From assembly GCF_048128805.1 (NCBI RefSeq), contig NC_136005.1:17820260-17884259 (forward strand): a DNA stretch of 64,000 bases, given 5' to 3'. The DNA comes from Centroberyx gerrardi (taxonomy: Eukaryota; Chordata; Actinopteri; Beryciformes; Berycidae). This document shows positions 48,701 to 54,700 of the stretch, piece by piece; position 1 is the stretch's first letter, and each line of letters opens with the position of its first letter. The translations under genes were made by a program, and so were the position numbers. Under the pieces are notes generated by a model, which did no database searches, was not told where the DNA came from, and saw only the letters and a list, made by a program, of their open reading frames with translations.

Positions 48701-51700
48701 GTCTCTGGAAACCCCCTGAATCTCCCCAGTGTTGACTGGGTGTTTCAACCGAAAACTGAAATGTTCCAGTCCTTGACCGCACCCTGCCTGTCAGATTGCC
48801 ATCTTTATTGGAAGAGCCTCCAACATTTATCCGCTCTCCTTCCTTCTCAACCTTGGTCGCAGGCACAAGATCAAGGGAAACTTCCAACACATGATGATGT
48901 TTGCAGGTACAGGAAAGCTACATTGATTTCCTCACTGCATCAGACTGAATGTGACTGTGTGGTTCTCTAGTTATAGTAACTATGGATGTGACTCTCTGCA
49001 GGCTTGCGTGGGGCGATGGCTTTTGCCCTGGCCATCCGGGACACGGCCACCTACGCCCGCCAGATGATGTTCACCACCACGCTGCTCATAGTCTTCTTCA
49101 CTGTCTGGGTGTTTGGTGGTGGGACCACCCCCATGCTGTCCTGGCTGCACATCAGGTGACGTAACTATTCAAATCTGTCGTGCTCTGCCCATTAGTGTCA
49201 GCTTTGTCTTTAAGAGCTGAGCTTGATAGCCAAGATGTAACATGGACAACTGAAAAACTTGTTTCAGACACATGTATATACAGTATAAGTGTTTGTATCA
49301 GCTTTAACTAAAGATAGCCATTTTTCTACAATTTCTTCACAATTCACATTATTGAATTTGATAGTTGTTTGGTGCGTGGTGGGATTGTCCAGGAGATGGG
49401 GCAAGAGATCTCCACTGCTGCTGGTCTTCCATCCAGTTCTTCCATGTAGTGATTTTTTAAAATTTTGTATTTCTTCTCCATCTTTCACTGTGGGAACTGC
49501 CGTAGGTTGTCCACTCTGGGATTGAACACTCTAGCACTGCCACTTAAAATCGAGATCATTCCTGAGCCAGAAGTGATACTGAGTCCACAGTCAAGTCAAC
49601 TGTGAAGCAATTGTTTATAGCTACTACTATAGCACAAGCTGTCCCTTACTGGGGACACACTAAGATTCGCTATTTAGAGCTTTGCTAATATGGGTATCTT
49701 TCTGTTTGGAGGCTTGCCTCCCTCATTTTTGTCTGTCCAGGATGCATCCAGAGCTGCTATTTATCGAGATAAAGCGGATTACGGGCTCGTAATGTGTATG
49801 ACAGCAGCTGCCTGGGCGAAAGGGCTCTGTTTAATATGAGTAATGCTGCCTCAGACTGAGCAGTAACTATTGTGTTTGTTGGGGTTTAGAGGGTTGCCAA
49901 AATCTCCCCATGAACTCATTGCCATGGTAACTGGGACATGTAGTGCATGGCAGTCAGATAGCAGCCATGCACATCTATGATCCTGATAGCCTCTGCGCTA
50001 TCATATGCGCATTAATTTACACGTTTTATGTCTGTGTGGGGAGCAGTTTTAAAGCCCTGAGGACCTTGATGTTGGATTCAAATAGATGATGTGAAGAGAT
50101 GAGTCTGCACTCACTGACAGTATAACCAGTCTGTCACTGAATAGTAATCAAAAAATGATTTTTCCTGGGTATGAATTCTGGGGGATGCTGAATATAAATT
50201 TTTCAAGATGAAATGTAATGTTTTTTTGATGAAGCGATAGCAAATGTATAGTGTGAGTGGAGAACCTGGTGTTCTCTGTTACTCTTTTTTTTTTTTTTTT
50301 TGGATGGTTTCTAAAGGAGGCAGGCCTGCACTGTATCACAGTGTCCTGACAGTGCAGCCATCTAGAAAGCAGGGAGAGAGAGATCCCACTGTGCCACAGC
50401 AGTTTATAGCAGTCACACTGGATCAGGGAAGAGCTGCTAATCCCTCAACTCTAATGCTGAGAATTTTAGGCCTTCTTAGCTGGTTGAAATTTGTATGGCA
50501 TGTAGGCGTCGTATCTATAGTGGTGTTTGCTGAGGAAAGGGCAAAGCAATAACCGTTCAAATCCTGAGGTTGTTGATAATACACTTTCATTTCATTTTTT
50601 TTTTTTAATACAGTAAGCATTTTGTGTAAGGATTGCTTTAATATCTCGCCTAATTTATACTGGATTGTGGCAGAGCATCGCTGTATAAATTATTAAGCGT
50701 GTCAGACTTCTGTAGTTCTTCCATCTTGTGTTTTTTGTGTATCCCTGAACATCTGCTGAGTCTCTGTGCCGGGTCCAAGAATCAGTGCACATCCCCAAAA
50801 CAGAGGATTTCTTAATGTACCATTATCAACTACGCTGATGAACATGACTGCGGTTTTAGCACATCTTTCTCTACCTGAGTTTGCTTGTTTGTGATACGAC
50901 AGAGTTGGGGACAACAAAGCGTTGCAGAATCAACGACGCCATCATGAAAAGTGGCAGTACACCAGGTGCTGTATTATGGAGCTTTTTTCCTATCTTTAAT
51001 CAAGAGCGTGGTCTTTCAATTTGAGAGCATGATTTAATGATTTCACGTTCAGATTTTGTAATGCTTTCCCTCAAACCCTGCCCTCGCACTCAAATAGCTC
51101 CTGCTTGCACTTAGATTTGCTCTGCTTCTGCTCAAACTGTATGCTTGCACTCAGATATAATGTTGCTTGCACACAGATTTCCTGCGCTCCAGCTTCAGCC
51201 CTTCTCCTCGCACTCAGGCTGCTTCTGTGCGCTCGTGAAACGTCTGCTCTCGGATTTCTTCTCTGCTCTCGGATTTTTTGTGCAACAACCCTGTCAAAAT
51301 TCCCCAACCAATAGAATGCCAGGTGTAGTGTTGACCAATGAAATGATCCCTGCCTCGTTGCGGGTGCGTTCGCTTTACTTCTTAGAGCGTCCCGTACGGG
51401 CGGTTACTGTTTAACCGGGTTCATCCACTCCCGCCCTCCAGGGCTTTATTAAATACGACTTTTGGAATAAAAGGACAGTTAATGTATATACCAGCGACTG
51501 TACTTTTTCTTTTACTATAATAGCTACATAAAATAGTAGCCGTATAGCACACCGGCCTCCCGTCGGTGTGCTAGAGGGGAAAACGACGTCACCTTCATGA
51601 CTCAGGAGTGGGAGTCTTGCGGATCACTGGCCAATATGGACTGCCAAAGTCAAGGACCTCAAGTAAGTTTTTTATTTTAATGGTGCTATTACTTCCTTCA

Positions 51701-54700
51701 AATTGAATTGGTTAAGTCATATTTGCGGCACAAGAATACATCCATGATAATATGCTTGGCTTTCAAGTGTTGTACGTTATGGGAACATTGTTGCTAGGCA
51801 ACTAACAACAAAATGGACGCCGCCGTGTTTCTTTTTTTCCTGTATTTTAGTGTTTAGGAATGGGAAAAGTACCAACAGCAAAAGTAACCAGCTAACACAT
51901 TAAGACAGTAGAAAACAAAAGTAAATTCAATGAGCAACTACATTTTAAAAACGCAATTGGTGTGTTGTGTATATATCCTTCTCTTCAAATGATGTTTACC
52001 GTTGCTGTGTCAAAGTCTGCTCTATCAGAAAGGTTTCACATATTGGAAATACGGTAAACACGTCCCCACTTGCAGGTATCATATTCATATCTGTAACATA
52101 TCTACAATTAAATCAGTTACATTGCCTATTAATGACTTCTAAATGATTTTCAAAGCATTAGTAAATGATTTATTAAAAATTAATGAAGCCATTAATTAAT
52201 GCTTATAAACCCAGTCAAACCCAGAGAAATTATGAGTAGCTAAATGTGTATCTCAATCTCCAGTAATCACGCTGTAGCATTAACTGAGATTGGAATAAAT
52301 TGGAATAATATCTGTGACACAATTTAAGGATTTCCTCAGCTTTAACAGTAACAGACCCCTCATTGTTCAACTGGAAAGCTAGTGCTTAATGTCTGCAATG
52401 TAACTGATTTAATTGTAGATATGTTACAGATATGATACCTGCAAGTGGGGACGTGTTTACCGTATTTCCAATATGTGAAACCTTCCTGAGTCATGAAGGT
52501 GACGTCGTTTTCCCCTCTAGCACACCGACGGGAGGCCGGTGTGCTATACGGCTACTATTTTATGTAGCTATTATAGTAAAAGAAAAAGTACGGGCGCTGG
52601 TATATACATTAACTGTCCTTTTATTCCAAAAGTCGTATTTAATAAAGCCCCGGAGGGCGGGAGTGGATGAACCTGGTTAAACAGTAACCGCCCGTACGGG
52701 ACGCTCTAAGAAGTAAAGCGAACGCACCCGCAACAAGGCAGGGATCATTTCATTGGTCAACACTACACCTGGCATTCTATTGGTTGGGGAATTTTGACAG
52801 GGTTGTTGCACAAAAAATCCGAGAGCAGAGCAGAAATCCGAGAGCAGAGCAGAAATCCGAGAGCAGACGTTTCACGAGCGCACAGAAGCAGCCTGAGTGC
52901 GAGGAGAAGGGCTGAAGCTGGAGCGCAGGAAATCTGTGTGCAAGCAACATTATATCTGAGTGCAAGCATACAGTTTGAGCAGAAGCAGAGCAAATCTAAG
53001 TGCAAGCAGGAGCTATTTGAGTGCGAGGGCAGGGTTTGAGGGAAAGCATTACAAAATCTGAACGTGAAATCAATAAATCATGCTCTCAAATTGAAAGACC
53101 ACGCTCTTGATTAAAGATAGGAAAAAAGCTCCATACTGTATCTGAACATGAACTCTCCTTCACTGCACATGGTGGTGGGAAAGCGTGTGGTTGCTTCAAA
53201 TGCAACTCTTTCTTTTCATTGTTCACTTCTATGGGGCTGGTAAAAGGGAACCTATAGGGAACCTATAAGGACTGGAATGGTTGAGACAGAGTCCAAGATT
53301 TTGCTTGTCTTGGCAGTCAGTCAAAGATCTGTGTTTAAAATGAACATATGGGATTTGTTTTAGAGGCTGGGTTGGTTTCAGATTAAAATGAAATGGATTT
53401 GGTTCCTGAGAAATAATCTTTTGAAAAAGTGGGTTCATGGACAAAGTTTGAAACCCACTGAGATGATACTGTGTTAGACACAAGCCCAGCCCAGGTGGAG
53501 GCTTTGCTCCTAGTGGAGTTACTATAGCATGTTCAAGTGCTTATTCAAGCCTTTCTGTGCCTGAGGCGGGCAATGTAGAGAATTTGTGAGACGGCCTGCT
53601 TTCCTTTGTGTTTCGATGGACTGTCCCACCAGATTTTCACACAGAAGTGTGAAGGACAAATCACACACTGTGTTCCCTGGAAACCGTTCAACAGACCAGT
53701 GTGAACTGATCTGAAAAGCAGAGGCAAAAGAGGAAGGAGGCAAGGTAACATTAAGCATACATGAAAAAACCCTGAGAGCTGGATCATCATGGTTCCTCGA
53801 AGTTAATTTTTACTCTCTTGAGGGCTCCAAGTCTTTGCTCAAGAATAGAAAACTAGAAAAGTAGTCACTTGTGAGGACCATTTGATGGCCTTAAGGAGGG
53901 AAGGGAATGCTTTTCAGGATTAGAGCTAGGATTAGAGGTTAGTGGGTGAATGCAAGACAGTGGAACATCCTCACTAGTACTGTATATACTATATGTGTGT
54001 GTATATACGCGTGAGCCTGGTCTATATTGTCTCTTATCAGAGGAAACTTGTGCTGGCCTGTGCTCCTCTTTTCTGGCGCTCCCGACGGTTGTCAGTGAGC
54101 CTTGATCTTGGGTCATTCCTCCCAGATCCTTCCTGATGCAGTCCCAGCAGGCTTTTCACCTCTTTGTTTTGCCAGGTCCTCTGACCTCCATGCAACCTCA
54201 ACCCCCCGGGGATCTGGTGAGGGGGCCCCGCACTTCCCTCTCTCTCTCCCCCTCTTACCTCTCCTGTAAGGCATGTAGAAGCCCTGTAGAAGAGAGGGAG
54301 CAGATCCTTAGAGACTTGAGGCTTTTGGATAGTTTGACACTCTTGGTCTGCTTCTCCTCTAGCCATTGGAATGGAAACTAGAAAGAAATATGGTTTGTTT
54401 CAAGTTGCGTATCTACTCCGAAGTGATAGTTTCTCTGTATGGCTATCATGGAAAAGATGTTTAGAAAGAGCTCACTGTCTGTAGAAAACTATACACAATG
54501 CACCTTGTATGAGATAACTCAGGCTGAGTGATAGCCGAACCACCTATAGTGCCAGTTGTAGTTTGGGGTTTCAGATATAACCATGAAAGGCTACTCTCTT
54601 GTGCCTTGGCCTCTGTCCATATGGATTAGACTCCATTGCTCAAAGGGAACTGTTCCAGAGCTTATGTGAATTGAAAGTGTTATGTACCGCTTAAAATCTG

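Follow-up and report, generated by a model that had tools for sequence, protein, structure and literature searches.

Positions 50975-53135 of the window, by which we mean the whole 64-kb stretch of DNA analysed, hold a 2,161-bp palindromic element. With a probability of roughly 80%, judged from its sequence, this is a young non-autonomous transposon of the IS3EU (IS3EU/GingerRoot) superfamily that derives from an autonomous parent whose 5' end was duplicated in inverted orientation. The superfamily placement is based on the termini and the duplication length of a single copy. By this assignment, a previously unplaced fish element is attributed to a minor, little-described superfamily. The element leaves the general view unchanged. 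Its asymmetric palindrome illustrates, on a small scale, the formation of non-autonomous elements with long arms.

Borders and architecture of the palindrome

The element is composed of two layers of inverted repeats around a central loop and is bordered by a direct repeat of six bases. Its features are, from left to right:

50969..50974, no strand: left target site duplication CTGTAT, 6/6 bases identical to 53136-53141
50975..51607, + strand: left outer arm, a terminal inverted repeat (TIR) of 633 bp with the end TATGGAGC
51608..52024, + strand: block B, 417 bp, present on the left side only
52025..52125, + strand: left inner arm C; its alignment with C' has 95 columns, with 1 substitution and 6 gap columns
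52126..52394, no strand: central loop D, 269 bp, AT-rich and CpG-poor
52395..52489, - strand: right inner arm C', joined directly to the right outer arm
52484..53135, - strand: right outer arm, 652 bp, with one extra 19-bp tandem unit
53136..53141, no strand: right target site duplication CTGTAT

CTGTAT directly abuts each border, and the terminal sequences read TATGGAGC...GCTCCATA. Arm-to-arm identity begins exactly at TATGGAGC, from 50975 and from 53135 inward. This means that the limits, the flanking hexamers and the perfect inverted-repeat ends proposed in an earlier note on this DNA are exact. Six identical bases at the same spacing were found at 18 of 56,625 other window positions (about 1 in 3,100), so that a duplication located precisely at the arm border is unlikely to be due to chance. 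By itself, a short inverted repeat with a 6-bp duplication is not rare: Combinations of an 8-bp inverted repeat and a 6-bp duplication within 5 kb occur eight times in the window, four of which lie within the palindrome or at its ends, and 38 times in 20 shuffled windows. What speaks for mobility is that long arms occur together with a duplication exactly at their ends. A chance palindrome is ruled out by the arm length and the border duplication.

Alignment of the outer arms over 633 columns revealed 7 substitutions (98.9% identity) and one 19-bp gap, which confirms the very high similarity claimed before. The gap corresponds to one unit of a tandem array at 52815-52867 in the right arm. The arm length of 630-650 bases given in the earlier note holds for the outer part, but not for the full extent, since outer and inner arms together comprise 728 aligned columns with 8 substitutions. 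On the right, both parts form one unbroken 741-bp stretch (52395-53135). On the left, they are separated by block B, of which the right arm has no counterpart. TCAG is present at both junctions of block B; the right-arm sequence continues across the corresponding site with one G/A difference. Both the TCAG repeats and the right-arm sequence fit a deletion, by which block B was probably lost on the right. A spliced intron, with the right arm as processed copy, was considered for block B and rejected, because GT..AG joining would not yield the right-arm sequence.

These asymmetries also bear on whether a mobile element is present at all. A host palindrome or an assembly artefact could be imagined, as only a single copy is known here and palindromes are prone to assembly error. 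However, the two arms differ from each other by 7 substitutions, gaps of 19 bp and 6 bp and the 417-bp asymmetry, and their ends are directly bordered by an exact 6-bp duplication, so that this explanation is hardly worth considering.

The central loop (52126-52394) contains two imperfect 22-bp tandem copies that are 73% alike. Its CpG observed/expected ratio is 0.15, beside CpG-rich arms. Because of this difference, the loop may be of other origin or age than the arms.

Termini, duplication length and superfamily

The consulted part of one publication describes IS3EU termini as TA..TA and the duplications as usually 6 bp long (PMC10045372). For fungal IS3EU families, the excerpt of another one gives TAYGG..CCRTA, TIRs over 30 bp and 6-bp target site duplications (PMC12730594). 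The element begins with TATGG at 50975 and finishes with CCATA at 53135, i.e. it has the form TAYGG..CCRTA. In the one copy available, CTGTAT is found on both sides, and the TIRs of 633/652 bp surpass the 30 bp, a limit stated for the fungal families. Hence, the view that the element cannot be placed in a known superfamily is not supported: Both its ends and its duplication length agree with the published IS3EU data. Within 15 kb, a TAYGG..CCRTA pair with a 6-bp duplication occurs once in the window, at this element. Since 20 shuffled windows yielded on average 0.4 such cases (maximum 2), the pair is meaningful only by its coincidence with the ends of the long arms.

IS3EU has been tabulated in percomorph fishes: The superfamily is entered for largemouth bass with 3,766 and for spiny red gurnard with 3,176, in each case in the first column, which we took as copy number. 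It is discussed for killifishes, too. By contrast, the consulted part of a survey of four teleosts lists IS3EU for zebrafish only (Gao et al.; PMC4746887), which counts against the placement. Arms of 633/652 bp are not stated as a feature of IS3EU in the portions of the publications consulted.

The strongest competitor, albeit an improbable one, is a non-autonomous element from a different superfamily that generates 6-bp duplications, for instance hAT6, Polinton/Maverick or an atypical MuDR-like one. TIRs of hundreds of bases are possible in MuDR-like and Polinton elements and would agree with it. On the other hand, the terminal bases of Polinton and hAT elements differ from TATGG..CCATA, and MuDR-like elements are not known to have such ends, whereas the element ends exactly in the IS3EU form. 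Of the 31 element frames, 10 were scanned, and neither a Polinton nor a hAT domain was detected in them. The gene set of self-synthesising Polinton/Maverick elements was not found either, as the element is 2.16 kb long and these 10 frames contain no such domain; a non-autonomous derivative is still compatible with this. The duplication lengths agree with this competitor: According to the excerpts, they amount to 6 bp for Polinton and 4-10 bp for IS256/MuDR (PMC10045372), and the 6 bp of hAT6 fit CTGTAT (PMC12730594).

The coding capacity is in line with a non-autonomous element. The element holds 31 stop-to-stop frames of at least 35 aa, 10 of which were scanned against Pfam. None of the 10 contains a transposase domain; the sole match, Ribosomal_L27 with an E value of 0.093, is not credible. 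A missing IS3-like DDD/E transposase domain argues neither for nor against IS3EU, because it is expected of a non-autonomous copy. Together with the 6-bp duplication and the young arms, these results support the earlier classification as a non-autonomous DNA transposon.

Self-comparison of the 64-kb window did not reveal further copies. Exact arm pieces of 19-20 bases had no match in viral contigs and three scattered bacterial matches in prokaryote contigs, which is about the chance expectation for 19 bases in 257 billion; both results are uninformative for a fish element. The terminal string tatggagctttt had no full-text match in the literature among the matches listed, where gctccata and IS3EU-1 were matched. 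Scans of the window for Rfam families (gathering score) and for tRNAs gave no match. Other repeats are present in the window. An inverted repeat pair at 582-652 and 878-946 (71 columns, 83% identical, about 225 bp apart) is possibly an old, degraded small inverted-repeat element. A 30/62-bp minisatellite with units of the CTCTATCACTCTTGTATGGA type extends from 13163 to 13397. In the list of open reading frames, 28825-29190 shows overlapping frames on both strands with a stretch similar to 'RDSNP/FEPR', which looks repeat-derived, perhaps of the SINE type.

Arm contents, presumed parent and host gene

The left arm and the adjacent part of block B carry three features that may have been inherited from the parent:

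51082..51276, + strand: seven subterminal repeats resembling GCTTGCACTCAGATTT, at 51082, 51103, 51143, 51165, 51206, 51242 and 51261
51545..51573, + strand: hairpin (12-bp stem) within the presumed 5' leader, z -4.5 when folded as DNA
51597..51662, + strand: putative first coding exon of 22 codons, weak, with ATG at 51597 and GTAAGT donor at 51663

The right arm has eight repeats resembling GCTTGCACTCAGATTT on its minus strand; in both arms, up to 5 mismatches were allowed. Shuffled left arms (n=500) contained on average 0.37 and at most 4 such matches, a contrast that is inflated because the motif had been chosen visually from this very arm. At equal looseness, the whole window has 35 matches on the plus and 40 on the minus strand, including those of the element.

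The CpG observed/expected ratio is about 0.85 in the arms versus 0.43 in the window, and 0.42 and 0.23 in the 1-kb flanks. In the left arm, it is the inner two thirds that are CpG-rich. This CpG-rich part is probably the promoter and 5' leader of the autonomous parent. The hairpin recurs in the right arm due to the arm identity; two other arm stretches that were folded proved unremarkable (z -0.5 and 0.0). The 22-codon frame starting at 51597 runs up to a good splice donor and is a weak candidate for the first exon of the parent; it is short and had no Pfam match. Its first codons lie inside the left arm, and the start codon is, consequently, mirrored in the right arm.

Thus, an autonomous IS3EU has probably left its 5' end, promoter and first exon in the left half of the element (50975-52125), and this half is therefore well suited as a probe for the parent. 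In the element, two copies of the presumed promoter, 5' leader and start codon face inward. Transposon silencing of the own family has a precedent in Mu killer of maize. By analogy, the element might naturally trigger silencing of the parent it derives from, although we regard this as a long shot. If it were true, transcription from either end or together with the host intron would generate an RNA that folds into a hairpin of about 730 paired bases and matches the 5' end of the mRNA from the autonomous IS3EU.

The host intron belongs to an slc9a7-like gene, whose exons resemble those of an endosomal Na+/H+ exchanger. By a motif search, such exons were located on the plus strand, first up to 49156 and then at 56081-57630. 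A frame within 55045-55434 resembles, as judged by eye, a continuation of the exchanger. Upstream, Pfam matches to the exchanger were obtained at 45411-45917 (above the curated cut-off) and 42901-43482 (below it). The exchanger exons on either side place the element in an intron. Other Pfam matches on the upstream side comprise a TBCC domain and PHD-type domains, one of the latter just below cut-off; we assume that the TBCC gene is rp2-like and the gene with the PHD-type domains jade-like.

Formation, age and comparison with known systems

The inverted duplication of a 5' end is suggested by two observations: The right arm is contiguous and its left counterpart split by block B, and the start-codon region is contained in both arms. 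Most likely, an inverted copy of about 1.15 kb of the parent's 5' end, comprising the end itself, subterminal repeats, promoter and start codon, would have taken the place of the remaining gene. The likely route would be template switching, a mechanism of inverted copying, in the course of incomplete gap repair after excision. The right copy would have lost 417 bp later or in the same event. The resulting element would retain two good ends and could be moved in trans. For this, an IS3EU DDE transposase from an autonomous relative elsewhere in the genome would bind the ends and probably the subterminal repeats, too. Integration with a stagger of 6 bp would then have produced the CTGTAT duplication in the slc9a7-like intron.

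With only 8 substitutions in 728 aligned columns, the inverted duplication or the last homogenisation must have been recent. At common fish substitution rates, the palindrome would be roughly one to a few million years old; arm divergence dates the palindrome and not the insertion. Active homogenisation by gene conversion between the arms is postulated for a classical foldback family, in which the long arms themselves are the mobile unit. Very long, near-identical arms that contain tandem repeats would suit such a family. However, the 417-bp block and the arm length differences of 19 bp and 6 bp escaped homogenisation, which cannot be shown from one copy anyway. Furthermore, foldback is a structural description that is compatible with IS3EU. 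As a separate explanation, it is very unlikely.

The preferred reading as IS3EU / GingerRoot is reflected in shared TA..TA ends of the type TAYGG..CCRTA, a 6-bp target duplication and TIRs longer than 30 bp. The element differs from this superfamily by its arms of 633/652 bp, the inverted duplication of one end and the lack of a transposase in the 10 of 31 frames scanned. Among the DNA transposons of fish, Dada elements also generate target duplications of 6-7 bp. According to the part of the publication consulted, they are devoid of terminal inverted repeats and target small RNA genes (PMC3706591). In contrast, our element has long TIRs, and Dada is ruled out by this lack of TIRs and the different targets. 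A structural likeness is found in Galileo of Drosophila, whose TIRs, as described in the excerpt consulted, were extended through the expansion of tandem repeats and the incorporation of ORF pieces on both sides (PMC4168063). A comparable extension by tandem repeats and ORF pieces is likely here. However, Galileo belongs to the P superfamily and generates duplications of 7-8 bp, so that it is not a relative, but a parallel in structure.
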